DNA of 64,000 bases from Acidithiobacillus ferrooxidans ATCC 23270 (lineage in GTDB: Bacteria; Pseudomonadota; Gammaproteobacteria; Acidithiobacillales; Acidithiobacillaceae). The position numbers and the translations under genes were made by a program. Under the pieces are notes generated by a model. It ran no database searches. It saw only the letters and a program-made list of their open reading frames with translations, and had not been told where the DNA came from. Location: the NCBI RefSeq assembly GCF_000021485.1, contig NC_011761.1, forward strand, positions 650,001-714,000, given 5' to 3'. Within the stretch, counting starts at the first letter, position 1. Every line of letters begins with the position of its first letter. Shown piece after piece: positions 41,167-62,728 of the stretch.

Positions 41167-41183
41167 TGCACCATTCTGGTGCG
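41167..41183 (+). promoter_or_regulatory. NtrC-type binding site upstream of the TonB-dependent receptor
   Basis: TGCACCATTCTGGTGCG matches the NtrC dyad TGCACCA-N3-TGGTGCA at 13 of 14 arm positions. It lies 51 bases upstream of the sigma-54 element, closer than most enhancers. Confidence 0.7.
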
Positions 41184-41234
41184 GATAAGGAAAGGATACC
41201 TTACGTGTCGTACAAAAATACGGGTAGATCGGCA

Positions 41235-41250
41235 TGGTATGGATATTGCG
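41235..41250 (+). promoter_or_regulatory. Sigma-54 (RpoN) promoter of the TonB-dependent receptor
   Basis: TGGTATGGATATTGCG matches the -24/-12 consensus TGGCACG-N4-TTGCA with GG and GC exactly 10 bases apart. The -12 ends 34 bases before the receptor ATG, a sensible leader length. Confidence 0.7.
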
Positions 41251-41284
41251 TATATGTAAAGCAGTATAACCTCTGGAGTCTACA

Positions 41285-43621
41285 ATGAACAAATCAAATA
41301 AACACCTTTTAAGGCAGAGCCTGTTGGTAGCAACAGGACTACTGGGCAGTTCACTTCTACCGGTCTACGCAGAAGTGGCCACCCCCACACCGCCTCCGGC
41401 CAAAAAAGTATATAAGATTAAGTCGGTTTCTAAGAATTTGCTGAGAATCGTCGAGAAGGCGGCGCTTACCCAGGTCAAACCGGTCTATGGTGCAGAAACC
41501 GCTCTCATCCCCCAAAAGTTTTTGGAGGGCCAGGAGTCTACCCAGAATGCCTCGACCATTCTAAGTTTTGTGCCTGGGGTCAATGCCACCAGCACGAACC
41601 CCATTGGTGTCAAGACCCATATTTCCGTACGTGGTTTCTCTCAGACACAAGTAGGCTACACCTTTGATAATTTGCCCATTGCTGATTTGTTCAATGGCGG
41701 TTTATCCGGAGGTAATAACAATTATGCGGATTTGACGAATCTCATCCCGGTTACGCTGGGTGAAACCTCCGGCATCCGGGTGACCTATGGTACACCATCG
41801 CCAGATATCAACGCCGTCGGCGCTATTGGTGGGAATATTGATTATCTGCCGAAGATTCCATCGGCAAAACGTTACGAGTCAGTATTTGCCGGTTATGGTT
41901 CCTTTAACACGCGCAGCTATGGCGCCGAGATCAACACCGGCGCAAACCCTGGTTATGGCAACCTCCTGTTGAGATTTTCTTCGCGCCAGACCGCAGGCTA
42001 CCTGGACCACAGCCCGGATCGCGAATATTCCTACTATGCGGCCTATGACTTGCCACAAATTTCGCCGACTTCCAAGTGGTCAGTCATATTTTTACTGAAC
42101 AAGAATCAGGGCGCGACCGCGGCGCGAATGCCGGTCGCACTGTTGCAGCAATATGGACCCTATTACCAATGGCCGCTGTCTGTTACCTATGCGAATGGTA
42201 CGGCGGAACATATGATGGCTATTGTGCAGAATAAAACGCTTATCTCATCTCACGCCGTTTTTGGTTTCAAGGGATTTTATGCCTTTACCAACTCCAATCG
42301 TTTGGAGTATGTGAATCCCAGTGTCAATATGCCTTATAACAGCTTTGTTACCTTTTATCTCAATCCGGCACAAACTGTCTGCCAGTATTCTGGAAATGAT
42401 TTTGCCGGTAATAATTCTGCGGCATGTCAGGCCCAAACTATTAACGGAGATAATTATCATAGTTACAGCTATACTACGAATACGTTCGGATTTAATCCTT
42501 CCGTCGAGTGGCTCAGCCATTATGTGGACTTGAAAGTCGGAGGGTTAGGTGCATTCTCTCTGTATCATTCGCAGAACTATGTTTATGGAAGCCGGAATGT
42601 CCCCGAAGTGGCCGGTTACAACGACCTTTGGAATGAGCACGCATGGCGCCTGTACGGTAAGCTCTATGCGCAAGCCAAAATCAAGCCGACGCGCTCTTTG
42701 GCCATCACCCCCGGTCTGAAATATGAGACGGTGAGCACGCATATAAATGACGTGCCAGGTTACTACTACGCCGTAGGTGCGAGCAGTGGCCGCTCTTACG
42801 GTGAGGTGAGTCCATACGCCGGTATCCAGTATAAGCCGACAAAAGCGGTAACTCTGTATGCCAACTATGCGGTTGGGTACAAATATCCGAATATCACCGC
42901 GTTCTATGCGGCTGATAGCAATGCCACATCGACATCGCCATCGACGCCAGTGACCATAAAGCCGGAGCAAGTCAACACGTATCAGTTTGGGGTCGCTTAC
43001 AAGCATGATGGTCTTGATGCGAGTATTTCTTTATATCGTTCAGACTTCACACATACATTCAGTTCCTACTATGATACAACAACAGGGTTGACTTATGAGT
43101 ACAATATCGGTTCTTCATCGTATCAAGGCATAAACATTGCCACTGCTTACGCATTAGATAATTATATATCGATTTATGGGAACTACTCGCTTCAGGACGC
43201 ACATTACACCTCAAACTCGTCAAGTGCCTATGGAGTTGCCACCAGCATTGGAGAGCCGCGGGCCAATACCCCAACTTATCTTGCGGGTGTGGGGATAGAA
43301 GGTCATTACATGGGTACGCGCGCCCGATTGTACGGCAATCTGGTCGGCCCGCAATATATTGAGGCCAGTACGGGTGCACCAACTTCTATCAGTATGCCCG
43401 CCTATGCGACCATGAACTTCAACCTTGCGCATACCTTTCGAATACATCGGTACGGGTTTAAAAATGTGACGTTCAGTCTGAGCGGGGTGAACCTATTGAA
43501 CTCCGAAGCGTCGGTTCTCGAAAAGCAGTTCCCCTATATTAATAATCAGCCTGGCAACTACCTCGTTGCAGAGCCTATGATGCCACGCTCGTTCTTTGGG
43601 ACGGTGAAAATAGTATTTTAA
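41285..43621 (+). CDS. TonB-dependent outer-membrane receptor
   Basis: 778 residues. Signal peptide ending near LLPVYA-EV, then a Pro-rich linker, a plug domain (about 65-190: ALIPQKFLEGQESTQNASTIL, HISVRGFSQTQ, GAIGGNIDY) and a 22-strand-type barrel rich in Tyr, Ser, Thr and Asn. The last residue is Phe, as in outer-membrane barrels. No clear TonB box was found. The substrate is not given by sequence; the shared NtrC/sigma-54 control with exbB-exbD-tonB and purine genes points to a nitrogen-containing compound rather than iron. A divergent LysR regulator lies upstream. Confidence 0.88.
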   Translation: MNKSNKHLLRQSLLVATGLLGSSLLPVYAEVATPTPPPAKKVYKIKSVSKNLLRIVEKAALTQVKPVYGAETALIPQKFLEGQESTQNASTILSFVPGVNATSTNPIGVKTHISVRGFSQTQVGYTFDNLPIADLFNGGLSGGNNNYADLTNLIPVTLGETSGIRVTYGTPSPDINAVGAIGGNIDYLPKIPSAKRYESVFAGYGSFNTRSYGAEINTGANPGYGNLLLRFSSRQTAGYLDHSPDREYSYYAAYDLPQISPTSKWSVIFLLNKNQGATAARMPVALLQQYGPYYQWPLSVTYANGTAEHMMAIVQNKTLISSHAVFGFKGFYAFTNSNRLEYVNPSVNMPYNSFVTFYLNPAQTVCQYSGNDFAGNNSAACQAQTINGDNYHSYSYTTNTFGFNPSVEWLSHYVDLKVGGLGAFSLYHSQNYVYGSRNVPEVAGYNDLWNEHAWRLYGKLYAQAKIKPTRSLAITPGLKYETVSTHINDVPGYYYAVGASSGRSYGEVSPYAGIQYKPTKAVTLYANYAVGYKYPNITAFYAADSNATSTSPSTPVTIKPEQVNTYQFGVAYKHDGLDASISLYRSDFTHTFSSYYDTTTGLTYEYNIGSSSYQGINIATAYALDNYISIYGNYSLQDAHYTSNSSSAYGVATSIGEPRANTPTYLAGVGIEGHYMGTRARLYGNLVGPQYIEASTGAPTSISMPAYATMNFNLAHTFRIHRYGFKNVTFSLSGVNLLNSEASVLEKQFPYINNQPGNYLVAEPMMPRSFFGTVKIVF

Positions 43622-43847: not shown

Positions 43848-44654
43848 ATGGGTACGAGCATGAACATCGTCTGGCTTTATTTGTTTTCCGGAGCAGTCGC
43901 GGGCATAATTTCAGGAATGCTAGGAGTTGGCGGCGGGATCGTCCTGGTCCCTATCCTGATTTTTATCTTTGGTGTTCTCGCCATACCCGTAGGCATGGCA
44001 GCACATATGGCAATCGGGACGTCCCTGTCAACAATTATATTTACCTCCATGTCGGCAATACATGCTCAGCACAGACGAAAAGCAATTGACTGGAATCTGG
44101 TCAGAAAGCTTGCTCCGGCGACCATTCTCGGGAGCCTCATCAGCGGTTATCTGGCAGGGCTGATTCCCGGACAGGCATTGAAAGCAATATTCGGCGTATT
44201 TTTAGCGGCGGCGGCGGTGCAAATGTTTTTTGAATGGCGGCCGGCGCCCTATCGTACCCTGCCTGGCCCCTTGGCCCTTTTGGGCATTGGTACGGGTATT
44301 GGTGCGCTCTCCGCGATGTTGGGGATTGGCGGTGGCACGCTCACGGTTCCATTCTTCAATTGGTGTAACGTGGACTTGCGTCGGGCCATAGCCACGTCAA
44401 CGACTTTGGGGTTTGGGCTGGCGATCTTTGGCACCATTGGTTTCATTGTATCCGGATTTCAGCGGCCCGGATTGCCGTCGGCCAGTTTTGGCTATGTTTC
44501 CTTGCCGGCTATGCTGGGAATAGCGAGTACCGCAGTGCTATTCGCGCCGTTTGGCGTTCATTTATCATATCGTCTTCCCGTGCGCCGACTCAAACGCATA
44601 TTCGCTTTGCTCCTCCTCTGCCTTGCGTTTAATATACTCCTGAATTTCATATAG
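43848..44654 (+). CDS. TauE/SafE (TSUP) family membrane transporter
   Basis: 268 residues, about eight hydrophobic helices. The duplicated family motif appears as GMLGVGGGIVLVPIL in the first half and AMLGIGGGTLTVPFF in the second. TSUP proteins export or import small anions such as sulfite, sulfoacetate or taurine-derived compounds; the substrate here is unknown. It lies in the island downstream of the TonB receptor but 226 bases away, so co-transcription is uncertain. Start ATG at 43848 or 43860. Confidence 0.88.
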   Translation: MGTSMNIVWLYLFSGAVAGIISGMLGVGGGIVLVPILIFIFGVLAIPVGMAAHMAIGTSLSTIIFTSMSAIHAQHRRKAIDWNLVRKLAPATILGSLISGYLAGLIPGQALKAIFGVFLAAAAVQMFFEWRPAPYRTLPGPLALLGIGTGIGALSAMLGIGGGTLTVPFFNWCNVDLRRAIATSTTLGFGLAIFGTIGFIVSGFQRPGLPSASFGYVSLPAMLGIASTAVLFAPFGVHLSYRLPVRRLKRIFALLLLCLAFNILLNFI

Positions 44655-45216: not shown

Positions 45217-45233
45217 TGCACCATTATAGTGCA
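45217..45233 (+). promoter_or_regulatory. NtrC-type binding site upstream of exbB
   Basis: TGCACCATTATAGTGCA fits TGCAC-N7-GTGCA exactly and the longer dyad at 13 of 14 arm positions. It lies 93 bases upstream of the sigma-54 element, a usual enhancer distance. A half-site, TGCACCA, follows at 45247-45253. Confidence 0.75.
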
Positions 45234-45326: not shown

Positions 45327-45342
45327 TGGCATGTTTTATGCC
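45327..45342 (+). promoter_or_regulatory. Sigma-54 (RpoN) promoter of the exbB-led operon
   Basis: TGGCATGTTTTATGCC matches TGGCACG-N4-TTGC with GG and GC 10 bases apart. The -12 ends 46 bases before the exbB ATG. It would drive the purine-catabolism array. Confidence 0.7.
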
Positions 45343-45388: not shown

Positions 45389-46093
45389 ATGATCTCGTTC
45401 AGTTATCTCGTGCACCTTGCCAACTACTCAGATGGCGTTCTGTACATCTTGATGTTCCTTCTCGTGGTCGAGCTTGCCGTGATCTTCGATCGGGCCTGGT
45501 ATCTTCGTAACGCCATCAGCAGAGGTAAGAAAATTCTTTGGGGAATATCCGCCCGTGGCAAGTTGCGGCGCCCTGACCTGGAAGATCTGGTGGTTTTGTC
45601 GAAGGGGCTTCCCGAAGAATCTCTGCTGGGTGTAGCGCTCCGACATTTCAATTTGATTCATCACTACGGCAGCGCGCGTGGTGAAGCCTTCGCGAACCGT
45701 TTGGACGAAGCTATTTTCCTGACGACGCCAAGCCTGGATAAGCGCCTTTGGATATTGGACACCATTGTCACCCTGGCGCCCCTTCTGGGCCTGTTCGGTA
45801 CCATTCTCGGCATGTTTCACGCGTTCTCCATTCTCGCGGCGCCTGGTCATAATCCTGCGTCCGTTACCGGCGGTGTCGCGGATGCGCTGATTGCCACCGC
45901 GTCTGGACTTTTTATCGCCATGATCGGCTTGCTGAGCTTTAACGCATTCAACAACGCCATCGAGAAAACCATTTTCCAGCTCGAGTCGTTGAAGGTGGTG
46001 CTCATGAACCGCTTGGATGGCGCGCCCGTGGTATTAGAGGAGACGGCAGTCAGCGCCCCGTCATCAGCAACGGCGTCTGAAATGACCGCATGA
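45389..46093 (+). CDS. exbB: ExbB/TolQ-type proton channel protein
   Basis: 234 residues, MotA/TolQ/ExbB family, with three membrane helices (about 16-35, 130-152, 165-190). The conserved block LDTIVTLAPLLGLFGTILGMFHAF and the later TASGLFIAMIGLLSFN are typical. It forms the proton channel that energises TonB with ExbD. First gene of the array; GGAG lies 6-7 bases before the ATG. A Tol-Pal role is unlikely because exbD and a Pro-rich tonB follow. Confidence 0.92.
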   Translation: MISFSYLVHLANYSDGVLYILMFLLVVELAVIFDRAWYLRNAISRGKKILWGISARGKLRRPDLEDLVVLSKGLPEESLLGVALRHFNLIHHYGSARGEAFANRLDEAIFLTTPSLDKRLWILDTIVTLAPLLGLFGTILGMFHAFSILAAPGHNPASVTGGVADALIATASGLFIAMIGLLSFNAFNNAIEKTIFQLESLKVVLMNRLDGAPVVLEETAVSAPSSATASEMTA

Positions 46094-46140
46094 TGTTTCG
46101 GAAGATTTTTCACTCTGCCAGGCAAAGTAAGGAGTAAAGC

Positions 46141-46539
46141 ATGTTACCCCAACGCCGGCCCCGCAAAAAAGGGCGTGTCGAAATCATTCCGATGATTGAC
46201 GTTATGCTGTTCCTGCTGGTTTTTTTCATCATGATTACTTTGCAGATGATTACGGATAAGGGGTTAAAACTGGACTTGCCCACATCCAGTGAGACGAAAG
46301 TACTGCCGCATCCGCATTTCGTGCTCAATATCGTGAAGGATGGCGGTGTTGTGGTGAAGGGCAAAAAAATGAGCCTGGATCAATTGCAGAATTTTCTTGT
46401 CGGCGATGGCGATGCCAAGCACACGCAGGTGACGATCGCTGCTGATAAAATGGTTCCTTTTAAAGATTTTGTGCATGTGATGGATGCTTGTCAAAAAGCG
46501 GGTGTAACCAGCATTGGTATTGCGGCGAAGCCCGCGTGA
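46141..46539 (+). CDS. exbD: ExbD/TolR-type protein
   Basis: 132 residues with a single N-terminal membrane helix containing the conserved aspartate (MIDVMLFLLVFFIMITL) and a periplasmic domain ending KAGVTSIGIAAKPA. The Asp takes part in proton translocation with ExbB. It lies 47 bases after exbB. Short and normal for the family. Confidence 0.93.
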   Translation: MLPQRRPRKKGRVEIIPMIDVMLFLLVFFIMITLQMITDKGLKLDLPTSSETKVLPHPHFVLNIVKDGGVVVKGKKMSLDQLQNFLVGDGDAKHTQVTIAADKMVPFKDFVHVMDACQKAGVTSIGIAAKPA

Positions 46540-46628
46540 GTAGTTGCGTCTTATTTGGGGCAACCTGTGCGAACGTCAAACATACAGTTGGTGAGCGCGA
46601 CAACGCTCGAAAATGGGAATGAATTTAT

Positions 46629-47387
46629 ATGACTACCACGATGCCTAGGGCCACAAATTATTTACTTATGCCGGAGCCGAAGGAACGCCATTTTAAGTAT
46701 GCCGTGGGCGGGGCGGTGGCGGTTGAAGTCCTGCTCGTGCTCGGCTTGGTTTGGTATGGGCACAGTAGACCTCCGATAAACGCCGTCAAGCCCAAGGATC
46801 ACGTCATTGCGGTACAAATGATGACTTTGCCGCAACCACCGCCGAAGGTGTTGCCCAAGCCTCTTCCAAAGCCGGTTCCTCCCAAACCGGTGCTGCATCA
46901 TGTGACGCCGCCACCGCCACCGCCGCACCCGAAGATGGCGATTCCGCCAAAACTGGCACCGACGCCGCCCGCGCCACCGGTTAAGACGGCGACGCCACCA
47001 ACGCAGATCCCTCAATCAGTAGCGACGCCAGCGCCTAAGCCGCTAGTGACGCCACCTCCTGCCCCGCCGCCCATGTCGGCCCAGCAGACGGCCTCGTTGA
47101 TGGGGCGTTATGTCGGGCTGTTGCGGCCAATGATTCAGCAGAATCTGCATGTGCCCGCAGAGTTAAAAGCGATGGGCATGAGCGGCAAGGCGACCGTTGA
47201 GTTTGAGATCTCGCCTACGGGCCAGTTGCTTTGGGCAAAAATTATCCAGTCTAGTCCATTGAGTGCGGTAAATCGTGCAGCACTTGCAGCAGTAAAGGAT
47301 GGTGGCTTCCCACCATTTCTCAAAAAGATGCCTAAACAGAATACGGTATTTCAAATCGACGTTGAAGTGGGTGCCGGATCAAGTTAG
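46629..47387 (+). CDS. tonB: TonB energy-transducing protein
   Basis: 252 residues: a membrane helix (about 25-45, YAVGGAVAVEVLLVLGLVWYG), a long Pro-rich periplasmic spacer (about 65-150, repeated PPPK/PKP), and a C-terminal TonB domain (GRYVGLLRPMIQQNLHVPAEL...SGKATVEFEISPTGQLLW). It contacts TonB-dependent receptors. Being encoded with exbBD at the head of the array, it is probably dedicated to the upstream receptor. Confidence 0.93.
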   Translation: MTTTMPRATNYLLMPEPKERHFKYAVGGAVAVEVLLVLGLVWYGHSRPPINAVKPKDHVIAVQMMTLPQPPPKVLPKPLPKPVPPKPVLHHVTPPPPPPHPKMAIPPKLAPTPPAPPVKTATPPTQIPQSVATPAPKPLVTPPPAPPPMSAQQTASLMGRYVGLLRPMIQQNLHVPAELKAMGMSGKATVEFEISPTGQLLWAKIIQSSPLSAVNRAALAAVKDGGFPPFLKKMPKQNTVFQIDVEVGAGSS

Positions 47388-47444
47388 CGTTCTATGCAAG
47401 GTATTTTAATTCCAATGATTTTGTAACACTGCGGGAGAAAAGTG

Positions 47445-48869
47445 ATGGGTGACAGGCATTCGATTAGTGCCACGACAGAGGCGGAGCGCACGAGTTCAGC
47501 GCCGCGGGTCGCTTTGATCTGGCTAGCGGCGACCATGACCGCCTCTAGCTTGCCGGTCGGCGTTTTGATCGCCCAGTTGTTTCCTATGGCGCCATTTCTG
47601 TGGGTAGTTCTGCTGGCATCTGCGCTTTTTGCTGCCGTGGGTATCATCAGTATACCGGGATTTGTCTACGGTATTCCGACCATGGCGGTTTCTGCGCGCG
47701 TTTTTGGGAGGTCGGTCAATAAACTGATTTCGTTGAGTAACTGGATGTCCCAGTTGGGTTGGCAGGCCGTGGTGTTAGTGCTTGTGGTTTATATCCTTCG
47801 CAGTGTCTTTGATAGTTACAGTTTTTTACCTGCAAATACTAGTATTTATTACGCGCTGGTATTGGCTGTGTTTGGTAATTTTGTGGTGCCAATTATCGGG
47901 TATAGGGCCATCGTGACGGCGCAGACGGTGGGGGCGCTATTTCTCGCGCTGTTTGCGATGGCCATACTGGTATATCTACATGGCGGGCAGGCTCTTTCGA
48001 TGACGCATGCTCTAGGCCGTTTTGACGGACTTCAAACCCTGGGTGGAATTGCCTTGGCGCTCATGGGTGGTGCGTTCTCCTGGACGATGTTTGCTTCGGA
48101 TTATTCGCGGTATGTGCGGCGTGACACGAGCCTGACGCAAATGGCGTTATGGCCGAGCCTCGGCGGATTTGCAGGCGGCGGCCTTATTCTCGCATTAGCG
48201 ATTACGCTGTATGTGCATGGTGGTGTCCAGGTAGGACCTGCCGGAATAAGCATCACGGCGACCGGGCTGGGCACTTCGGTACTGTATTTAGGCTTTTGCA
48301 CTTTTGCGATATTGGGGTTGTTGGCATCCAATTTCCTGAACTCCTACAGTTCCGCTTTCAGTCTCGCGGTGGTAATAGGTAAAGATCTGGATCGCAAGAA
48401 ATTTACGGTTCTGGATGCCCTGCTGGCAACGTTCGTCGGTACCTATATGCTTTTTGTGGCGCCGTCATTCTGGGAATCTTTTCAAACCTTCCTGGATTTG
48501 CTGATTATTGTCGCGGCGCCGTGGACCGGTGTGATGATCATCTACGTGCTGTGGGACGTGCTTCCGGAAGCACGCGGAGGGTTGAACAGACAGTTAGCTA
48601 GGCGTGCTAATGTATGGGTTCTCGCCATGGGGATCGCGGTTACCGTATTGTTCTCCAATAATCCGATTTGGGAGGGATATGGAGCGCATCTATTGCATGG
48701 TACAGATATATCTCCATTGGTGGGTGTCGCGACGACGATTGTGGCATCAATACTCTACCGGGTTTTGTTTTGTCACTATACGGCCGCTGATGAGCAGGGG
48801 CAGGTGTGCGCGTTATCCATACCGGTTGTTAGTAAAATTACCGATGAAGGTGCCAACGGGTACAGATGA
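47445..48869 (+). CDS. NCS1 family nucleobase permease (CodB-like)
   Basis: 474 residues, about 12 hydrophobic helices of the NCS1 (purine/cytosine) transporter family. Typical blocks are TASSLPVGVLIA, NWMSQLGWQA and SWTMFASDYSRYVRRDT. The ATG at 47445 follows GGGAGA; a GTG at 47442 is adjacent. It overlaps guaD by 4 bases. Substrate is inferred to be a purine base (or cytosine or a ureide) from the surrounding deaminase genes; NCS1 members also carry allantoin and hydantoin. Confidence 0.88.
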   Translation: MGDRHSISATTEAERTSSAPRVALIWLAATMTASSLPVGVLIAQLFPMAPFLWVVLLASALFAAVGIISIPGFVYGIPTMAVSARVFGRSVNKLISLSNWMSQLGWQAVVLVLVVYILRSVFDSYSFLPANTSIYYALVLAVFGNFVVPIIGYRAIVTAQTVGALFLALFAMAILVYLHGGQALSMTHALGRFDGLQTLGGIALALMGGAFSWTMFASDYSRYVRRDTSLTQMALWPSLGGFAGGGLILALAITLYVHGGVQVGPAGISITATGLGTSVLYLGFCTFAILGLLASNFLNSYSSAFSLAVVIGKDLDRKKFTVLDALLATFVGTYMLFVAPSFWESFQTFLDLLIIVAAPWTGVMIIYVLWDVLPEARGGLNRQLARRANVWVLAMGIAVTVLFSNNPIWEGYGAHLLHGTDISPLVGVATTIVASILYRVLFCHYTAADEQGQVCALSIPVVSKITDEGANGYR

Positions 48870-50095: not shown

Positions 50096-50141
50096 GAGAT
50101 GTATATGCACAGCCTTATAAAATATACGGAGCAACATCTTT

Positions 50142-52210: not shown

Positions 52211-52271
52211 CCATACGGGTCATCGATGTATCCGCTGGTGCGTTTCTAGCCCGGGAGCAAGGAGTGTCGCC

Positions 52272-54530: not shown

Positions 54531-54532
54531 TC

Positions 54533-54982: not shown

Positions 54983-55848
54983 TGCCTGAGTGGATAAGGC
55001 CGCGACATTTGCCGGAAGCCCTGGAGATATTGGCGGCAGCCCCCCGCCCATATCGGGTGATTTCGGGTGGGACCGATCTTATGGTGGAGAGTCATCTCGC
55101 CCCGGAACGGCGCCCGGAGTCCTGGCTGGACATCAGCGGACTGCAGGAGTTGCAGGGGCTGCAGATTACGGAAGAGGGTATCCGGATTGGCGCGGCTACT
55201 TCCCTGGAAGCGATTCGCCGGCATGCGGAAGTGGTCGCCCACTGGCCGATGCTGGCAGCCTCGGCGGCGGTGACCGGGGCGCCGCCCATTCAAAACCGCG
55301 CCACGCTGGGTGGCAACGTTTGCAATGCATCACCTGCGGCGGACAACGCGCCGGTGCTGCTGGCTTATGGCGCACGTCTGGAGATCGCCCATCATCATGG
55401 TTCGCGTTGGTTGCCTTATGGAGATTTCCATCAGGGGTATCGTAAGACGGCCTTGCGAGCTGGAGAGTTGCTCAGCGCGTTCTGGATTCCTTACCCCCCC
55501 AAACGCAGCCATGGCTATTTTCGGAAAGTCGGAACACGGGCAGCGCAAGCTATTGCCAAGGTGAGTATCGCGGCGCTCATCGAAGAAGATAGGGGGGGAA
55601 TTATTCAGAGTGCGCGTTTCGGCGTGGCGAGTGTAGCGGCGACTCCCTGCACCTTGCCAACCGTGAGCCAATATCTGCTGGGACGTGCGTTGCGTGATAT
55701 CACCGACGCGCAGGTGCGTCAGAGGGTAGGGCAGGATATTGCACCCATTCAGGATATCCGCTCAACGGCGGCATATCGTTTGGAGATAGCTTCCCGGCTG
55801 GTGCTGGACGCCATACATGGACGTGGTGAATCGAAAAAGGAGGATTAG
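54982..55848 (+). CDS. Xanthine dehydrogenase-type FAD-binding subunit
   Basis: 288 residues of the CO/xanthine dehydrogenase medium subunit family. FAD-binding segments are VISGGTDLMVES and ATLGGNVCNASPAADNAPVLLA. The start ATG shares a base with the preceding stop (TGATG). Upstream frame sequence has no similarity. With the previous two it makes a Mo-FeS-FAD order. AAGGAGG at its 3' end serves the next gene. Confidence 0.93.
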   Translation: MPEWIRPRHLPEALEILAAAPRPYRVISGGTDLMVESHLAPERRPESWLDISGLQELQGLQITEEGIRIGAATSLEAIRRHAEVVAHWPMLAASAAVTGAPPIQNRATLGGNVCNASPAADNAPVLLAYGARLEIAHHHGSRWLPYGDFHQGYRKTALRAGELLSAFWIPYPPKRSHGYFRKVGTRAAQAIAKVSIAALIEEDRGGIIQSARFGVASVAATPCTLPTVSQYLLGRALRDITDAQVRQRVGQDIAPIQDIRSTAAYRLEIASRLVLDAIHGRGESKKED

Positions 55849-55851
55849 AAT

Positions 55852-56436
55852 ATGGATACCTATGCAAAGCAGACAGAGGCGGTTTATGTAGATGTCCCAT
55901 TGCTGGACGCTACCCCGGAGAACCTCGCGGAATACGGCGTGATGATTGGCGAGGCGGTACACCGGCCGGGACTTTCGATTCCCTTTTATAAGGGGACTGT
56001 GGAAGAGGGGCAAAATCTCGATTTTGAATATACCGGTCGCGCGGTGGTCCGCACGGCCCGGATATCGCACCGTAACCCCGAGATTACCTGGCTGGAACGG
56101 CACCTCAATATGACGCAGATTTTTGTCGGGCTGGGCAGCATTCCCTTCGCCATGGTGCTGGGTAAACCCAATCAGGGCAGCGGGGAAAATGTCCCCCGTC
56201 TGGAGGACGTCCGCGCTTTTCGCATTCCGGCGGGGCAGGGGGTGATGATTCATGCGGGTACCTGGCACGATTTTCCCATGTCCATTGGCGATCCGGTGAC
56301 GGTGATGACCATGAATTCTGACGAGGTGGTCACTGCTTTGGCGAACGCTCAGGCAGCAGATGAGATGGACGATGGGGACGTGTACAAGATCGACATCCAA
56401 CGTCGCACCGGGCGGGTGCTCCGGGTTCCCTTTTAA
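55852..56436 (+). CDS. Ureidoglycolate lyase (AllA family)
   Basis: 194 residues resembling the AllA cupin family, which splits ureidoglycolate into glyoxylate and urea. Visible blocks are NMTQIFVGLGSIPFAMVLG, RAFRIPAGQGVMIHAGTWHDFP and the following VTVMTMNSDE. It is longer than the usual 160-170 residues at both ends. It lies 3 bases after the FAD subunit with AAGGAGG before the ATG. In a classical purine route it acts last, after uricase, allantoinase and allantoicase, none of which is seen here. Confidence 0.82.
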   Translation: MDTYAKQTEAVYVDVPLLDATPENLAEYGVMIGEAVHRPGLSIPFYKGTVEEGQNLDFEYTGRAVVRTARISHRNPEITWLERHLNMTQIFVGLGSIPFAMVLGKPNQGSGENVPRLEDVRAFRIPAGQGVMIHAGTWHDFPMSIGDPVTVMTMNSDEVVTALANAQAADEMDDGDVYKIDIQRRTGRVLRVPF

Positions 56437-56454
56437 TCGCAGAGGGCGAAGACC

Positions 56455-57546
56455 ATGCGTACCTCCGTCTACCGGTTTTTTACGACAGACCCTGCCGACG
56501 TTTCCGGACTGGTCCGGGCGATTGCCGAGGGGGTGATAAATCCCCAGAGCATCGTCGCGATTATTGGTAAAACCGAGGGTAACGGCGGCATGAACGACTT
56601 TACCCGGACTTTGGCGATGATGGCTGTGAGCCAAGTGCTGGCAACGCATCTGGATTGCCGTCCAGAGTTGGTGGAAGAACGCGTGGTGTTGTCCTTTTCG
56701 GGAGGTAGTGAAGGGGTTGCGGCGCCGCATATTCTGGTGTTTGCGGTATCAGGCCGGGCGGCGGAGCAAGCCTATCCGATAAAACGTCTGGCGCTTGCAT
56801 CCGCCCATACGCGCCCTTTCAGCGCGCAGGAAGTGGGGCGGATGGCGATGGTGCGGGAGACCGCCCGCGCGGTGACCCGGCTCATGCATACCTTGCAGGT
56901 CGAGCCTGCGGATGTGCATCTGGTGCAGATCAAAGGGGCGATTCCAGCGCCGGACTCTACAACGACCGGAAATGTCCGTGACGAGCACCTGCGCTGTGAC
57001 ATGGCCTGGTCGCGCGGCGCTTCTGCCTTGGGGGTGGCCCTCGCTCTGGGTGAGGTCACTGAATCCGAACTGTCGGATGACGTCATCAACCAGGATTGGT
57101 CCTTGTACTCCAGTCGGGCCAGCGTTTCCGCCAAACCCTTATTGCAGCGCTCCGAAATGGTGCTCTTCGCCAATTCGTGCTGGTGGGAAGGTGATCTGGT
57201 CATCGCCCATGGGGTGATGCAGGACATCATCGATGTGCCGGCGATTCATGCCGTGCTGAATCAGCTGGGACTGCAGCCCGTCAACGGGCAGTTGGCAGAT
57301 GTCGATACGAAGAAGGTGCTGGCGGTCTTCGCCAAATCCGATGCCGACCCGCGGGGCCATATCCGTCATCGTCGTCATACCATGTGGACGGACGCGGATA
57401 TCTCCGATATGCGCTATTCCCGCTGTGTAGTCTCAGCCTTGTTGGCTGGAATCACCGGGGAAACCGGCGTTTATGTCTCGACGCGCGCGGAGCATCAGGG
57501 TCCCCAGGGGGGCGGGCCGGTGGCCGTGATCGGGTACGCATCATGA
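56455..57546 (+). CDS. Ring-opening amidohydrolase of the AtzD/barbiturase family
   Basis: 363 residues of the cyanuric acid hydrolase/barbiturase family, which has a three-repeat fold with Ser-Lys dyads. The three conserved blocks are LSFSGGSEGVAAPH, SLYSSRASVSAKPL and VYVSTRAEHQGPQGGGPVAVIG. Known members open cyanuric acid (AtzD/TrzD) or barbiturate (Bar). Here it sits between allA and xdhC, so the natural substrate may be a cyclic ureide or imide from purine breakdown. No triazine-specific genes (atzA-C) are present. The ATG lies 18 bases after allA; the stop overlaps xdhC. Confidence 0.82.
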   Translation: MRTSVYRFFTTDPADVSGLVRAIAEGVINPQSIVAIIGKTEGNGGMNDFTRTLAMMAVSQVLATHLDCRPELVEERVVLSFSGGSEGVAAPHILVFAVSGRAAEQAYPIKRLALASAHTRPFSAQEVGRMAMVRETARAVTRLMHTLQVEPADVHLVQIKGAIPAPDSTTTGNVRDEHLRCDMAWSRGASALGVALALGEVTESELSDDVINQDWSLYSSRASVSAKPLLQRSEMVLFANSCWWEGDLVIAHGVMQDIIDVPAIHAVLNQLGLQPVNGQLADVDTKKVLAVFAKSDADPRGHIRHRRHTMWTDADISDMRYSRCVVSALLAGITGETGVYVSTRAEHQGPQGGGPVAVIGYAS

Positions 57547-58484
57547 ATGCCATCGCCAGTCGTCAGCGGCCCTTGCTTCCGGTCCGGGAAGCCGTCGTGA
57601 CCAGGGTGCGGGGGTCTGCGCCCACGGCGGTCGGGGCCAGCATGTGTCTCTTGGAAGACGGCTCCCTGTTGGGCACGGTAGGTGGTGGCCGTATGGAATA
57701 TCAGGTCTGTCAGGTGTTGTGCTCTCCCCGTTCTGAAGCACCTCCGGCATTACTGAGTTTTACCCTGGGTACGGCGGATGATCAGTGCTGCGGTGGGCAG
57801 GTGGAAATCTGTGTGTTGGATGTGCCCCTATTTTTTTCCGAGCTGTACCAGCCTGGCGCCTCTCGTCTCTATCAAAGAGATTCAGCAGGCCGGTTGCGGC
57901 TCGTAGCCGGGATGACCCGTCTGGGACGGGAAATCGGTTCCTTTGATGCCTTGACTGTGCTTCTGCGCGCCAACGCTCCGGGTATGGATGTCGAGGAGCG
58001 GCACTTCGCGCTGCCAGCCCCCCATCATCAGCCGCTATGGATTTTTGGAGCGGGGCATGTAGGGCGGGCGATCGCCAGCATGGCCCACAAATTGGATTTC
58101 GCGTCGTCCGTATTCGATCAGCGCCCCGAATGGGCCGATCCTGCCGCCTTTCCGCCGGAAGTTACCCTGGTGGACACTTGGACCTGGGCCGATCTGCAGG
58201 CCCCGGCAACCGATGCCATGGTGCTCATCATGACCTACAGCCACGCCATGGATTACGCGTTGCTGGAGCATTTTATCGGGGAACCCTTGGCTTATCTCGG
58301 AGTAATTGCCAGCCGGTCCAAAGCGGCGCGTTTCAGTCACGCACTGTCCCGCGCCGGACATGACATTCCGGACTATTTGCACATGCCCATGGGTTTGCCA
58401 GGAATGGGTAAAAAGCCCCCAGAAATCGCGATCAGCGTGTTGGCAGAATTGCTGCAATTACGGCACAAAAAAACTGATTTTTAA
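57543..58484 (+). CDS. xdhC: XdhC-type molybdenum cofactor maturation protein
   Basis: 313 residues of the XdhC/CoxI family: an N-terminal XdhC domain (VVTRVRGSAPTAVGASM, GTVGGGRMEYQV, GTADDQCCGGQVEI) and a Rossmann domain (IFGAGHVGRAIASMA). XdhC binds the molybdenum cofactor and inserts its sulfurated form into xanthine dehydrogenase. Its presence supports the hydroxylase being of the xanthine dehydrogenase type. The ATG overlaps the preceding TGA (ATGA). Confidence 0.92.
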   Translation: MNAIASRQRPLLPVREAVVTRVRGSAPTAVGASMCLLEDGSLLGTVGGGRMEYQVCQVLCSPRSEAPPALLSFTLGTADDQCCGGQVEICVLDVPLFFSELYQPGASRLYQRDSAGRLRLVAGMTRLGREIGSFDALTVLLRANAPGMDVEERHFALPAPHHQPLWIFGAGHVGRAIASMAHKLDFASSVFDQRPEWADPAAFPPEVTLVDTWTWADLQAPATDAMVLIMTYSHAMDYALLEHFIGEPLAYLGVIASRSKAARFSHALSRAGHDIPDYLHMPMGLPGMGKKPPEIAISVLAELLQLRHKKTDF

Positions 58485-58500
58485 TAAAAGGAAAAGCAGA

Positions 58501-58701
58501 ATGAATCCGCCCGGAACAGATGCTGAAACGCCCGTGGATACGTATATGAACTATCTCTTCGATTCTTTTGGGCTCACTGTACGCGAAGAATGGCGTGCGG
58601 ACGTGAAGTATTATTTCATGCTGAGTACGCGGATGGCCAAGATGCTGGAAGCGCACCCGCTGGATATGACGGAAGATTTGGCCCCGGTATTCCGCCCATG
58701 A
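58501..58701 (+). CDS. atzG: AtzG/HpxX-like small subunit (DUF4089)
   Basis: 66 residues, resembling the small partner of AtzE-type amidases: YMNYLFDSFGLTVREEWRADVKYYFMLSTRMAKMLE. In the cyanuric acid pathway AtzG forms a tight complex with AtzE and stabilises it, and in Klebsiella-type purine loci the equivalent is HpxX. It directly precedes and overlaps (ATGA) the amidase gene, as expected. AAGGAAAA precedes the ATG at 58501. The protein ends APVFRP. Confidence 0.85.
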   Translation: MNPPGTDAETPVDTYMNYLFDSFGLTVREEWRADVKYYFMLSTRMAKMLEAHPLDMTEDLAPVFRP

Positions 58702-60095
58702 AGCCAGAGAACGACGCATTTCCGCAGGCGCAGGAAATTGCGCAGCGGGTCCGTAGCGGCGAGTGGCGCGCAGTGGAGGTGGTGCAGGATACACTCCGGC
58801 ATATCCACGCCAGGAACGGCGAGATCAATGCCTTCACCTGCGTCACGGAAGCGCGTGCCCTACGGGAAGCGGAGGCAGTGGACCAGAAGGTGGCGCGGGG
58901 CGAAGACCCTGGGCCTCTGGCGGGGGTGCCCTTTGCGGTCAAAAATCTTTTCGATTTGCAGGGCGAGATTACCCTCGCCGGGTCCAAGATCAATCGAAAA
59001 GATGCCCTCGCCGTGGCGGACGCCACCGCCGTAAGACGGCTCACGGCAGCGGGCGCCGTCCTGGTGGGCGCTCTCAATATGGGCGAGTATGCCTACGATT
59101 TTACGGGTGAAAACATTCACTATGGGCCTTCCCGTAATCCCCATGACCGTTTGCGGATGACAGGCGGGTCCAGTGGCGGCAGTGGTGCCGCCGTAGCGGC
59201 AGGCATGGTGCCCATCGCCCTGGGTTCTGACACCAATGGTTCTATTCGGGTGCCGTCTTCCCTCTGCGGTATTTTTGGACTGAAGCCGACCTATGGCCGC
59301 TTGTCCCGGGCTGGAGCCTTTCCTTTCTGTCCCAGCCTCGATCATGTCGGCCCGCTGGCACGTAGCGTGGCGGATCTCGCTCTCGCCTATGATGCCATGC
59401 AAGGGGCGGATGCTGCGGACCCCGTTTGTGCGGATAGGGCGACTGAGCCGGTCAGTGGAAGTCTGGCAGACGGTGTCGCCGGCCTGAAAATCGCCATTGC
59501 CGCCGGCTATTTCATGCAACAGGCGACGTCAGCAGCGGAGCAGGCACTGGCGCGGGTCGCGGCGGCGCTGAATGTGACGGATCTCGTCGAAATTCCCGGC
59601 ACGGCGCAGGCGCGTGCCGCCGCCTATCTCATCACCAATGCCGAAAGCAGCAATCTGCATCTGGATCGTTTGCGTCATCACGCCGCCGACTATGACCCGG
59701 ACGTGCGGGATCGCATGCTGGCCGGTACGCTATTGCCCGCGTCCTGGAATATCCAGGCTCAGCGTTTCCGGCGCTGGTATCGGGCGGAAGTACTCAAGGT
59801 TTTCGCGCGCTATGACCTGTTGCTGGCACCGGCCACGCCCATGTCGGCGCCCGCCATCGGGCAGCGATATATGGAACTGGACGGGGAGCAAATGATGGTG
59901 CGACCGCATTTGGGTTTGTACACCCAACCCCTCTCCTTCATTGGCCTCCCGGTGGTGGTGGTGCCCGTAGCCAGCGCAGGGGCGATGCCTATCGGGGTCC
60001 AGATTATTGCTGCACCCTGGCAGGAGGCGCGAATATTTAAAGTCGCAAGAGAGCTTGAGTTGCACGGATTTACCAGTCCAATCCCCGCTCGCTAA
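58698..60095 (+). CDS. atzE: AtzE/HpxY-like amidase
   Basis: 465 residues of the amidase signature family. The Ser-cisSer-Lys triad is visible: Lys82 in PFAVKNLFD, Ser158/159 in TGGSSGGS and Ser183 in [12 protein letters not shown]. AtzE hydrolyses 1-carboxybiuret in the cyanuric acid pathway; the close relative HpxY is tied to oxalurate use. Both readings fit the neighbours, since a ring-opening amidohydrolase precedes it and HpxZ/HpxW homologues follow. Starts within the atzG stop. Confidence 0.88.
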
Positions 60096-60108
60096 GAGGA
60101 AAAATCCC

Positions 60109-60495
60109 ATGGTTCACACCGAAATCAATGCGCCCGAAGTCTTACAAGAAATGCAGGCAGCTTTTTTTCGTTATGAAAAAGCATTGGTGGAAAACGATGT
60201 TCATGTATTGGACGAATTATTTTGGAATAGTGTACACACGCTGCGCTACGGAGTGGCAGAAAATCTCTACGGCTATGCGGCCATTGCCGAGTTTCGGGCA
60301 TCCCGTCCAGCCCCTGCGCTGAATCGGGAGTTGGTCAATACGACGATCACCACCTATGGACAGAGTTTTGCGACTGCCAACACGGAGTTCCGGCGCGAAC
60401 AGGTGCATGGCCGACAAAGTCAGACCTGGATACGCACGCCAGAGGGTTGGCGTATCGTCGCGGCGCATGTGAGCCTGATGCCGACGGCAACTTAG
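60109..60495 (+). CDS. hpxZ: HpxZ/AtzH-like protein (DUF3225)
   Basis: 128 residues with an NTF2/SnoaL-like fold ([42 protein letters not shown]...[12 protein letters not shown]). It is called HpxZ in oxalurate-utilisation loci and AtzH in cyanuric acid clusters, where AtzH has been linked to decarboxylation of an intermediate. AGAGGA lies 8 bases before the ATG. Sits between amidase and the MobA-like gene. Confidence 0.85.
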
Positions 60496-60503
60496 GCTGT
60501 AGC

Positions 60504-61112
60504 ATGGATGCAGCCATCATTCTGGCGGGTGGCCGGTCCCGGCGCTCGGGGCGACAGCACAAAGCGTGCAGGCGTGTGCCCGGTGATGGCCGGAACTGGA
60601 TTGACCGGCAGGTGGATATCCTGCGGCAGGCGGGGTTCGCGCCAGTGTATCTGGTGACAGGGTATCGGCCACGGCGGATTTTGGCTTGCCTGCATCGTCG
60701 TGCCATGAAACGGCATAACTTTCGGGCAAGGCGTGGGCCTTTCTCGACGCTTCAGGTAGGGTTGCATAATCTATCTGGCCCTGCGTTGGTGGTGCAGGTA
60801 GATACGACTTTGCCGCCCGTGCTATGGCTCAGGCGGCTGCGGCGCCTTGCACACGCTCGGAATGTTGCGGCGGTAAGTCCGATAGATCGCTGGGGTAGCG
60901 GCGGGCATCCGCTGATGGTATCGCAGAGTTGGCTACCATCACTCTGCGCAGTACCTTTGGGTGCAGCTGATGCAAGGCTAGATCGACAACTGGGTTATTT
61001 GTCGGCGGTAGAGCATATTCGCTTGCCGTGGAATCACTATTTGCGTTATTCCCGGCTGAATACCCGCCAGGAATGGTGTTCAGCGCGTCGCAAACTGAGG
61101 TCCATTCTGTGA
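60504..61112 (+). CDS. MobA/MocA-like nucleotidyltransferase (degenerate motif)
   Basis: 202 residues. The N terminus AIILAGGRSRRSGRQHK recalls the LAGGxSxRMGxxK nucleotide-binding motif of molybdenum cofactor nucleotidyltransferases, but the spacing to the lysine is one residue longer and the Met is missing. The protein is very rich in Arg and Leu. It may modify the cofactor of the hydroxylase or have lost activity. It overlaps the HpxW-like gene by 4 bases (GTGA), so it belongs to the same transcript. Low-confidence function. Confidence 0.6.
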   Translation: MDAAIILAGGRSRRSGRQHKACRRVPGDGRNWIDRQVDILRQAGFAPVYLVTGYRPRRILACLHRRAMKRHNFRARRGPFSTLQVGLHNLSGPALVVQVDTTLPPVLWLRRLRRLAHARNVAAVSPIDRWGSGGHPLMVSQSWLPSLCAVPLGAADARLDRQLGYLSAVEHIRLPWNHYLRYSRLNTRQEWCSARRKLRSIL

Positions 61113-62728
61113 AACCCGGTCAGATCTCCTTGTCGGCGAGTTCGGAGAGGGGTGCCGTGAGTGCTCCGCACGCCCTGGCGGCCGAGGCCGGGGCCGCTAT
61201 TTTGCGCAGCGGTGGTAATGCCATAGAGGCGGGTATCGCGGTGGCATCGACCCTCTCTGTGGTCTATCCCCACATGAACGGGCTGGGGGGCGACGGGTTC
61301 TGGCTGATCTCGGACGGCGATGCGCACACGGTGCGCGGACTGGCCGCTGCTGGTCCATCAGGACGACGCTATTCGGCAGCACTGTTTCATGATCGTGGGC
61401 TACGCGAGATTCCGTTCCGTGGCGGCTTATCCGCTTTGACAGTGCCTGGTGCGGTGGGCGGCTGGGGAGCAGCATTTGGGTTCTCCAGGGATCGCTGGCG
61501 GGGCCGTAAGTCCTGGTCCGATTTGCTGGAGAGCGCTTATTGCCACGCCGCCACCGGTTTTCCGCTCAGCCCTAACCAGAGCCATACCCTCACGAGATTT
61601 GGTGACGCACTCCGTCAGCAGCCGGGTTTCGCAGCGCATTACATGCCGGGGGGAGAGATAATGCCAACCGGGCGACTGTGGAGTCAACGGGCGCTGGCAC
61701 AAACGCTCGGGACTCTGGCGGAGAATGGTGCAGAGGCTTTTTATCACGGTCCGCTCGCCTGGCAAATGGCGAAGGGTCTCAAAGCCGCTGGCAGTCTGCT
61801 GACAGAAGCCGATTTGCAGGCCTTCGAGCCCCGCTGGGTGGAGCCGGTGCGCACCGCCTTCGGCGTCGGCGAAGCCATCAATATGCCGCCGCCCACCCAG
61901 GGGGTAGCCTCGCTCATGATCCTCGCCCTGCTCAATCGCGTTGGACTCAACGGCGGGGACCATCTGGGCTCGGAACTGATTCATAACACGGTAGAAATCA
62001 CCAAACTGGCCTTCAAGTACCGGGACCAGCTCATCGCTGATCCCGACTTTTGCGATGTGGACATTGCGTCATTGCTGAATCCGGATTTCCTGGATGACTG
62101 CGCCAGAGAGATACATCCCCTTATCGCGATGCCACTGCCACCCATTGGACCCGCCAAAGGCGATACGGTCTGGTTCGGGGTGGTGGATGGGCAAGGGCGG
62201 ATGGTGAGTGTGATTCAGAGTCTCTACCACGAGTTCGGCACTGGCGTGGTGGCGGGCAATACTGGGGTGTTGTGGAATAATCGCGGCTGCGCCTTTTCTC
62301 TGGAGCCGGGACACGTCAATGTGTTGGTGCCGGGGAAACGCCCCTTTCATACCCTTAATCCAGCGCTCTATGCCGAGCAGGGGCGGGTGCAACTCGCCTA
62401 CGGCAGTATGGGGGGAGATGGCCAGCCCCAAACCCAGGCGGCACTGCTCATGCGCGTCAAGCACTATGGGCTTTCCCTCGCCGAGTCAGTAGCCAGTCCG
62501 CGCTGGCTGTATGGGAGGACCTGGGGAGAGATCTCGGCCGGTTTGCGTCTGGAGCAGCGCTATTCCCGGACTGTTTTTGAGGATTTGCAGCGCTGGGGGC
62601 ATCAAGTGTCATGGGTTCCGGGTTACAGTGATTTCATGGGTCATGCGGGCATGGTCGCGCGTGACCTGGAGGGTGGATTTGCCGGTGCCGCTGATCCCCG
62701 CAGTGATGGGAGCGTGGCAATGCCGTAG
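61109..62728 (+). CDS. HpxW-like gamma-glutamyltransferase-family Ntn hydrolase
   Basis: 539 residues of the gamma-glutamyltranspeptidase family (Ntn hydrolases). The autocatalytic threonine is expected in GDTVWFGVVDGQGRMVSVIQ. Other blocks are AAEAGAAILRSGGNAIEAGIA and GGDGQPQTQAALLMR. HpxW in Klebsiella is an oxamate amidohydrolase in the uric-acid degradation pathway, next to hpxXYZ as here; true glutathione transpeptidases usually carry a signal peptide, which is absent. GTG start with TGAGG 8 bases upstream, overlapping the previous stop. Last gene of the array. Confidence 0.8.
   Translation: MKPGQISLSASSERGAVSAPHALAAEAGAAILRSGGNAIEAGIAVASTLSVVYPHMNGLGGDGFWLISDGDAHTVRGLAAAGPSGRRYSAALFHDRGLREIPFRGGLSALTVPGAVGGWGAAFGFSRDRWRGRKSWSDLLESAYCHAATGFPLSPNQSHTLTRFGDALRQQPGFAAHYMPGGEIMPTGRLWSQRALAQTLGTLAENGAEAFYHGPLAWQMAKGLKAAGSLLTEADLQAFEPRWVEPVRTAFGVGEAINMPPPTQGVASLMILALLNRVGLNGGDHLGSELIHNTVEITKLAFKYRDQLIADPDFCDVDIASLLNPDFLDDCAREIHPLIAMPLPPIGPAKGDTVWFGVVDGQGRMVSVIQSLYHEFGTGVVAGNTGVLWNNRGCAFSLEPGHVNVLVPGKRPFHTLNPALYAEQGRVQLAYGSMGGDGQPQTQAALLMRVKHYGLSLAESVASPRWLYGRTWGEISAGLRLEQRYSRTVFEDLQRWGHQVSWVPGYSDFMGHAGMVARDLEGGFAGAADPRSDGSVAMP

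Follow-up and report, generated by a model that had tools for sequence, protein, structure and literature searches.

Within a 64,000-nucleotide stretch of Acidithiobacillus ferrooxidans ATCC 23270 (the window; positions 650001-714000 of a single-contig genome of 2,982,397 bases), we find a gene for a TonB-dependent outer membrane receptor and, downstream of it, an array of exactly 18 same-strand genes (45389-62728), with a TauE-type permease gene also lying upstream of the array. The first half of the array runs exbB, exbD, tonB, an NCS1 permease, a guanine-deaminase-like protein, an adenine-deaminase-type enzyme, a NUP-family protein and three molybdenum hydroxylase subunits; the second half runs AllA-like, AtzD, xdhC, AtzG/HpxX, AtzE/HpxY, AtzH/HpxZ, MobA/MocA-like and HpxW-like. 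An earlier note made from the letters alone had listed the receptor and the 18-gene array, and reading frames together with family matches confirm every part of that list in its place. In all likelihood the locus is an NtrC/sigma-54-type, TonB-linked purine nitrogen system, whose ring-opening step is unusual and unproven. Its features, with positions counted from the first base of the window, are:

41167..41183: NtrC-type palindrome upstream of the receptor gene, TGCACCATTCTGGTGCG
41235..41249, plus strand: sigma-54-type -24/-12 site of the receptor gene, TGGTATGGATATTGC
41285..43621, plus strand: TonB-dependent outer membrane receptor, 778 amino acids (Pfam TonB_dep_Rec_b-barrel 101 bits, Plug 34.5 bits)
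45217..45233: NtrC-type palindrome upstream of the array, TGCACCATTATAGTGCA
45327..45341, plus strand: sigma-54-type -24/-12 site of the array, TGGCATGTTTTATGC
45389..46093, plus strand: exbB (Pfam MotA_ExbB)
46141..46539, plus strand: exbD (Pfam ExbD)
46629..47387, plus strand: tonB (Pfam TonB_C; TIGR01352 above cut-off)
47442..48869, plus strand: NCS1-family nucleobase permease (Pfam Transp_cyt_pur 54 bits)
48866..50095, plus strand: guanine-deaminase-like amidohydrolase (best families guanine deaminase, below cut-off)
50142..51185, plus strand: adenine-deaminase-type enzyme of the adenosine deaminase family (NF006850, 480.6 against a cut-off of 419 bits)
51182..52210, plus strand: NUP-family protein, probably exported, nucleosidase/phosphorylase-like (Pfam NUP 165 bits, PNP_UDP_1 28 bits)
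52272..54530, plus strand: molybdenum hydroxylase large subunit, xanthine dehydrogenase (XDH) type (MoCoBD_1/2)
54527..54982, plus strand: molybdenum hydroxylase 2Fe-2S subunit (Fer2_2)
54982..55848, plus strand: molybdenum hydroxylase FAD subunit (FAD_binding_5, CO_deh_flav_C)
55852..56436, plus strand: AllA-like protein (PF04115 47.7 bits; general Pfam cut-off 23)
56455..57546, plus strand: AtzD-family (Toblerone fold) ring-opening amidohydrolase, Group IV type (PF09663 428 bits)
57543..58484, plus strand: xdhC, molybdenum enzyme maturation (XdhC_C, XdhC_CoxI)
58501..58701, plus strand: AtzG/HpxX small subunit (PF13318, 37.5 against 24 bits)
58698..60095, plus strand: AtzE/HpxY amidase (TIGR02715, 686 against 426 bits)
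60109..60495, plus strand: AtzH/HpxZ (NF033625, 197 against 135 bits)
60504..61112, plus strand: MobA/MocA-like nucleotidyltransferase (weak NTP transferase matches, all below cut-off)
61109..62728, plus strand: HpxW-like hydrolase of the gamma-glutamyltransferase family (PF01019 419 bits; TIGR00066, 359.2 against 357.85 bits)
40101..41051, minus strand: LysR-type regulator, divergent from the receptor gene (Pfam HTH_1, LysR_substrate)
43848..44654, plus strand: TauE-type permease (Pfam TauE 183 bits)

The intergenic gaps of the array range from -4 to 89 bp when hpxW is started at GTG 61109, where by our reading of the sequence it overlaps the mobA stop, instead of at 61028. The array gene that had been left unnamed is the MobA/MocA-like one (60504-61112), and the divergent LysR gene (40101-41051) and the TauE-type permease gene (43848-44654) had gone unmentioned.

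As the earlier note had stated, the receptor gene and the array have the same two upstream elements, a palindrome and a -24/-12 site before each; a half site, TGCACC, also lies at 45247, 30 bp downstream of the array palindrome. TGGTATGGATATTGC and TGGCATGTTTTATGC, each with GG and GC 10 bases apart, are the sole two forward-strand matches of the -24/-12 pattern used. The window contains two cases of a palindrome (at most one mismatch) followed 25-150 bp on by such a match, compared with a mean of 0.08 in 60 first-order Markov simulations, none of which gave two or more. These patterns were tuned or loosened on the window sites after they had been seen, and recurrence in relatives, set against other gene starts, is therefore the stronger evidence. 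It was also used as the test because other scans of the window stayed at chance level: a stricter sigma-54 consensus with at most two mismatches gave 13 matches where 13.9 were expected, and a three-mismatch NtrC scan gave 44 where 43.6 were expected. Above that level rose only the palindromes at one mismatch or fewer and the looser -24/-12 pattern. Promoter and terminator scans of the array were near the level of shuffled sequence as well (14 against 11.5 and 12 against 17.5).

Across the loci compared the sigma-54 site keeps its place, at -50 to -53 before the receptor gene in seven of ten loci and at -55 to -65 before exbB in seven of nine. Receptor palindromes accompanied by a sigma-54 match lie at -116 to -152 in 8/10 loci (three without a mismatch), and a palindrome plus sigma-54 match precedes exbB in 7/9, six of them without a mismatch. 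We counted pairs, defined as a palindrome followed 25-150 bp on by a -24/-12 match, at 0-3 palindrome mismatches, leaving aside rows whose match begins beyond residue 25 or that have less than 300 bases upstream. At up to 0, 1 and 2 mismatches the pair precedes the receptor gene in 3, 6 and 8 of 10 loci; for exbB the counts are 6, 7 and 7 of 9, compared with 1, 1 and 1 of 246 for other gene starts, the single other start being xdhB of genome G668, the first gene of its operon. Across the window genome, YGCACYN5RGTGCR occurs at 11 places and its reversed control at 2. Five of the nine palindromes outside the locus precede ntrBC, amtB (these two named by eye), a BBP2 porin gene, a circularly permuted ATP-grasp gene and, at a distance of 615 bp, a gene for a TonB plug protein; the other four have neither such a neighbour nor a sigma-54 match within 250 bases, and the amtB palindrome too is without a sigma-54 match by the pattern used. 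Control of the receptor gene and the array by NtrC and sigma-54, proposed in the earlier note, is thus supported by the sites, their recurrence in relatives and the palindromes before ntrBC and amtB, NtrC itself being the presumed ligand.

Four of these strict palindromes fall within 14 kb (G000:C1:2579890-2593850, L053-L056), before ntrBC, amtB, the BBP2 porin gene and the ATP-grasp gene. A sigma-54 match lies 98 bp past the porin palindrome and the ATP-grasp palindrome also has one; from these sites the two genes look like further nitrogen-regulated genes. At G000:C1:2686310-2686816 (L057), a strict palindrome and TGGCAC-N5-TTGCT, about 490 bp apart, lie upstream of another TonB plug protein, a candidate second nitrogen-regulated receptor.

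AtzD orthologues occur in 14 of 29 family genomes. Of the 13 whose neighbourhoods were read, 12 have the array genes in unchanged order over the length of sequence retrieved, which for G001, G005, G013, G014 and G015 ends inside the array or before its flanks. In G010 only xdhB to hpxW are present, and the seven upstream array genes were not found in the adjoining 14 kb. In the fourteenth genome, G011, the contig stops just past atzD, and a matching contig (L019) carries ncs1 to atzD in the same order. In G022 (L042, L043) the order is kept with xdhC, mobA and all three hydroxylase genes missing together, and no XDH match turns up in the rest of its genome; it is a natural knock-out of the molybdenum module. 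In G003 (L028, L029; a complete genome of 2.92 Mb) the match to ncs1 is split into two parts and that to hpxW into three, with about 1.6 kb separating the final part from the one before it.

In 10 of the 13 loci the LysR and receptor genes lie next to the array, upstream in the window genome and G003 and directly downstream of hpxW in the other eight; in G005 and G014 the downstream side falls outside coverage, and in G010 the two genes were not found in the 2.8 kb available. That the receptor gene was relocated and yet stayed with the array argues for one system, and comparison of the loci supports a link of receptor, LysR regulator and array. The TauE-type permease gene occupies the same place only in the window genome and G003 and is not a constant part. 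In the window's interval between the TauE-type gene and exbB, a frame at 44741-44886 resembles by eye the end of a restriction/helicase protein, possibly a scar of the rearrangement that placed the receptor gene upstream here. On the megaplasmid of A. caldus SM-1 (L083, NC_015851.1) the receptor gene, the genes from hydroxylase to hpxW and the LysR gene are broken up by insertion sequences, with IS5, IS21 and ISNCY elements between the parts.

At the centre of the array stands an unusual AtzD. The window protein, whose closest named relatives are those of A. ferrivorans (94% identity) and A. ferrianus (82%), scores above the NCBIfam cut-offs for cyanuric acid hydrolase (389 against 360 bits) and ring-opening amidohydrolase (339 against 153), and its predicted model (pLDDT 88.4) matches cyanuric acid hydrolases best (5t13, TM 0.92). 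The three Ser-Lys dyads and three arginines are intact in all 17 AtzDs encoded beside an AllA-like gene; dyads and modelled fold place the window protein in the AtzD/barbiturase (Toblerone) family. Since the model also matches an entry with the title orotic acid hydrolase (TM 0.90), this is a fold that acts on other cyclic substrates too. By sequence the protein reaches 293 bits with cyanuric acid hydrolases, 189 with the barbiturase 5hwe and 152 with the 5hy0 protein.

Its active site departs from that of the cyanuric acid hydrolases. Where all 19 canonical homologues compared have Ser-Gly-Gly, all 17 variants have Ser-Thr-Arg, so that the Gly345-Gly346 of a cyanuric acid hydrolase active site (positions from PMC3758960) is replaced by Thr-Arg in every one. 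A second signature of the variants is Ser-(Ala/Ser)-Lys-Pro, in place of the canonical Ser-(Ala/Ser)-Gly-(Ile/Val/Gly), and in all 17 the position that corresponds to Glu230 in the Azorhizobium enzyme carries no glutamate. The available text of PMC4051656 calls this glutamate absolutely conserved in the family; for Group IV our alignment contradicts this. When 36 rows were placed in a maximum-likelihood tree, a branch supported at 100/100 set the variants apart from the rest. G010 has, besides its Group IV copy, a second, canonical AtzD (L044, G010:C46; 38% identity) with the Gly-Gly and Glu signature. The divergence of Group IV is itself already described: Peat et al. 2013 defined it from Acidithiobacillus and Sulfobacillus with Thr345-Arg346, suggested a function found only in the physiology of these acidophiles and, in the part of the paper available, assigned no activity (PMC3758960). 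What does appear to be new, among Creative Commons-licensed PMC papers, is the purine context of Group IV, together with its nitrogen control and its occurrence in other families.

A core of the array is also found outside the family. The AllA-like protein has close matches (58-100%) in 4 of 369 genomes of the class, namely the window genome, G668, G758 and G151, and remote ones in 11 others. G668 and G758, from two genera of another family, share the order xdhB-nup-FeS-FAD-allA-atzD-xdhC-hpxX-hpxY-hpxZ-mobA, with protein identities from 34% (hpxX) to 78% (hpxZ); hpxW and the TonB genes are not beside the core in either. Near the G668 core lie genes for a BMP-type ABC protein and an adenine-deaminase-type enzyme, and near that of G758 an NCS1 permease gene. 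In G151, of all the array genes, the 20 kb read contains the AllA-like and AtzD genes alone, side by side, and this identifies the two as a unit. Uptake modules thus vary, the hydroxylase, the AllA-like protein, AtzD and AtzG/E/H make up the constant part, and the AllA-like/AtzD pair is the kernel. An AllA-like relative (about 34%) also occurs on five Novosphingobium plasmids; the two inspected have no other array genes within 16-20 kb. The name allA, used in the earlier note, does not hold: among the matches listed, the protein falls far below every ureidoglycolate lyase cut-off (best NCBIfam 37.9 of 260 bits), and its identity as ureidoglycolate lyase was rejected on these scores; its predicted fold has a pLDDT of 38.9.

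What would the system take up and transform? The receptor has both plug and barrel and is accompanied by ExbB, ExbD and TonB, as TonB-dependent transport demands, and lies below the siderophore, heme and transferrin subfamily cut-offs (siderophore 73.6 against 223.5, heme 53.7 against 316.9 bits); from the families and the genomic association its cargo would be a purine compound. The deaminase at 50142 has its best PDB matches in 3ou8 (with 3pan, 3pao and 3pbm; 355 bits) and 3rys (345), all of which we take to be adenine deaminases, and the next at 138 bits. Its guanine-deaminase-like neighbour stays below the cut-offs of its best families (320.5 against 351 and 307 against 375.4 bits). The NUP protein has a signal-like N-terminus by eye and no PDB match. 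In the molybdenum large subunit a Glu and an Arg align with E232 and R310 of the Rhodobacter capsulatus XDH (1jro chain B), presumably its catalytic glutamate and purine-binding arginine, and both are kept in 15 of 15 loci; the enzyme is below all XDH equivalog cut-offs listed, and XdhC is below its NCBIfam cut-off (150.1 against 161.6 bits). A second, distant large subunit of this kind (30-32% identity) lies at G000:C1:736273-738462. Residues and matches thus support purine chemistry at the entry of the putative pathway.

Among the amide-cleaving enzymes, AtzE/HpxY matches 6c62 best in the PDB (492 bits) and AtzH/HpxZ matches AtzH itself (6bjt, 164 bits), with Tyr22 and Arg46, the catalytic residues given in PMC6219798, kept in 16/16. 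HpxX/Y/Z are equally AtzG/E/H, in the D-G-E-H order of pADP-1. The HpxW-like protein exceeds a curated NCBIfam cut-off only as a gamma-glutamyltransferase, by 1.3 bits. In the PDB it reaches 241 bits with 2nlz and 231 with 2i3o, and 223 and 213 with the separate chains of 5hft, presumably the Klebsiella oxamate amidohydrolase HpxW; the two 5hft chains together cover the protein and are the better match.

Several enzymes of known routes did not turn up. Uricase (PF01014) was found in 0 of 28 genomes, 11 of them array-bearing and with G021-G023, G668, G758 and G151 outside the search (control matches in 2/14). PuuD (PF06181) and hydroxyisourate (HIU) hydrolase (PF00576) were each found in 0 of 17 genomes including the window genome (control matches in 1/14 and 4/14, respectively). 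Urease occurs in 5 of the 17, the window genome not among them, and the allophanate hydrolase AtzF exceeds its cut-off in 10 of 28, again not in the window genome, and in 5 of the 11 array-bearing ones; the presence of neither tracks the array. No allantoinase or allantoate amidohydrolase appears among the families listed for the array proteins, in lists of at most 25. From the parts found, the textbook urate route cannot be completed, and nor can the one for cyanuric acid. The purine system put forward in the earlier note is supported at its entry, by the adenine-deaminase-type match and the XDH residues in 15/15; the HPX-type ending that it implies is not supported, with uricase PF01014, PuuD, HIU hydrolase and urease not found in the window genome.

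We propose that under ammonium limitation NtrC and sigma-54 RNA polymerase would activate transcription of the receptor gene and of the array. Judging from the protein families, the receptor, with its own ExbBD-TonB, would import a purine compound, the exported NUP-family protein would free the base and the NCS1 permease would carry it inward. Adenine and guanine would then be deaminated and the molybdenum enzyme would make urate, as family and residue evidence suggests. At the point where most organisms would employ uricase, Group IV AtzD might hydrolyse a cyclic imide of the purine ring, in xanthine, urate or a derivative, leaving a ureido group. By analogy, AtzG/E would remove the ureido end as ammonia and AtzH would decarboxylate, on the model of cyanuric acid, 1-carboxybiuret, 1,3-dicarboxyurea and allophanate, in which the AtzG/E and AtzH steps are proposed from a reconstituted cyanuric acid pathway (PMC6219798). 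Further nitrogen may be freed at some step by the AllA-like protein and the HpxW-like hydrolase. Since G022 lacks XDH and keeps the rest, urate need not be the ring-opening substrate, which suggests that xanthine, or a compound taken up in already oxidised form, can enter without XDH. According to the available part of PMC12507026, all three purine pathways studied there open the pyrimidine ring first, and direct xanthine hydrolysis is known but slow, so that hydrolytic ring opening is chemically precedented. NtrC-controlled purine nitrogen scavenging with Group IV AtzD opening the ring is our best reading, partly conjecture, and we put its probability at roughly 55%. The narrower proposal, in which the Group IV Toblerone enzyme and an AllA-like partner hydrolyse the six-membered ring directly and AtzG/E/H strip the ureido group, all without uricase, is tentative and short of even odds.

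A number of observations weigh against purine scavenging through AtzD. The substrate assignments are predictions from sequence; the molybdenum enzyme and the guanine-deaminase-like protein lie below all specific cut-offs among the matches listed, AtzD exceeds the NCBI cut-off for cyanuric acid hydrolase (389 against 360 bits), and HpxW suggests oxamate, which is no obvious product of purine imide opening. G022, without any XDH, retains the rest of the array. The negative results on uricolytic enzymes cover uricase PF01014, PuuD and HIU hydrolase, and no search aimed at HpxO, allantoinase or OHCU decarboxylase was made, so a uricolytic route keeps some probability. As for the regulation, at three mismatches the pair also precedes 9 of 246 other gene starts, and it was not detected before exbB in G002 and G021 or before the receptor gene in G021 and G023.

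Could the array instead end a conventional purine pathway? An unrecognised urate hydroxylase would then lead to allantoin, allantoate, ureidoglycolate and oxalurate, HpxX/Y/Z/W would release the last ammonia via oxamate, and AtzD would be an accessory. The HpxZ equivalog and AtzE/HpxY matches above cut-off fit this, as do the AllA-like gene, the XDH residues and the match of the HpxW-like protein to both 5hft chains, and in Klebsiella oxytoca hpxW lies in an operon with hpxY and hpxZ (PMC3560190). Against it, PF01014, PuuD, HIU hydrolase and urease were not found in the window genome and no allantoinase or allantoate amidohydrolase is among the families listed for the array proteins; the AllA-like protein is remote, hpxW is not beside the core in G668 and G758, and the constant partner is AtzD, which according to the available part of PMC6219798 accompanies atzG-atzE-atzH clusters only rarely. 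We consider this route unlikely, and an assignment of the array to the HPX pathway was not accepted, the tested uricase classes and HIU hydrolase not having been found. The use of cyanuric acid, arising naturally for example by chemical oxidation of uric acid, with the purine genes as mere neighbours, draws on the AtzD score, the D-G-E-H order of pADP-1, a LysR protein 41% identical to the one beside atzD there, and the report that uric acid, when chemically oxidised, can give cyanuric acid (PMC7948467). It has a slight chance: the window genome has no allophanate hydrolase above cut-off although 5 of 11 array-bearing genomes do, the active site is that of Group IV (PMC3758960), and G010 maintains a separate canonical AtzD. 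As an assignment for the array it was rejected on the AtzD active site and on AtzF not being found.

Oxidative use of pyrimidines, in which the molybdenum enzyme would make a barbiturate-like imide for AtzD to open in the manner of barbiturase or orotic acid hydrolase, has an equally slight chance. The AtzD family does include barbiturase and the entry titled orotic acid hydrolase, and the permease family by its name also carries cytosine and uracil, but AtzD is nearer to cyanuric acid hydrolases (293 bits) than to 5hwe (189) or 5hy0 (152), and the adenine- and guanine-deaminase-type genes, NUP and the XDH residues point to purines. It is very unlikely, too, that the receptor and exbBD-tonB serve ferric siderophore uptake and merely adjoin purine genes. 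The published listing of tdrK AFE0763, exbB AFE0768, exbD AFE0769 and tonB AFE0770 under Fe(III) uptake (PMC2621215) speaks for it; by gene order and position, from which we infer the identity, these are probably genes of the present locus. The NtrC/sigma-54 sites, the conserved linkage of receptor and array, and receptor scores far below the siderophore (73.6 against 223.5) and heme (53.7 against 316.9 bits) cut-offs speak against it.

Purine scavenging through Group IV AtzD would give a concrete, testable role to an enzyme group that had no assigned substrate in the available text of a 2013 structural study (PMC3758960). It also suggests what the atzD-G-E-H genes did before man-made triazines: if true, this natural purine set, by the common D-G-E-H order, would be a relative of the genes out of which the cyanuric acid operon was put together. 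One of many TonB receptors, in a rock-leaching organism bathed in soluble iron, would acquire a nitrogen-scavenging role where the published guess was siderophore uptake (PMC2621215). Uricase makes hydrogen peroxide. We speculate that this is costly for an iron oxidiser, where a uricase-free route would make sense.

The closest known arrangement is the atz operon of pADP-1 for cyanuric acid use, a LysR gene and atzD-atzG-atzE-atzH-atzF. Common to both are the D-G-E-H order and a LysR gene, beside atzD on pADP-1, the window LysR protein being 41% identical to it (BLASTP 234 bits); nitrogen control of the atz genes is a further likeness. Unlike pADP-1, the array is without atzF, has an AtzD of Group IV and xdhC between D and G, and adds the molybdenum hydroxylase, deaminases, permease, TonB parts and the HpxW-like gene. 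With the oxalurate operon hpxWXYZ of Klebsiella it shares HpxX/Y/Z homologues and an HpxW-like gamma-glutamyltransferase; it differs in having AtzD, in that the tested uricase classes and HIU hydrolase were not found, and in that HpxW is not beside the core in G668 and G758. The Group IV enzymes of PMC3758960 come from the same organisms (A. caldus SM-1, A. ferrooxidans and others) with the same Thr345-Arg346 signature, to which we add the NtrC/sigma-54 purine array context, three further genomes of two other families, the Lys-Pro signature and the loss of the Glu230 equivalent. Regarding the iron-uptake annotation of tdrK/exbBD/tonB, probably the same genes, PMC2621215 assigns Fe(III)-siderophore uptake whereas our evidence favours nitrogen scavenging. 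Two further pathways open the six-membered ring independently of uricase, as would the route proposed here: the reductive uric acid pathway and, in Clostridia and Bacilli, the xanthinase pathway (PMC12507026). Unlike the array, they are described for anaerobic metabolism and, in the available part of that account, no AtzD-family enzyme is mentioned.

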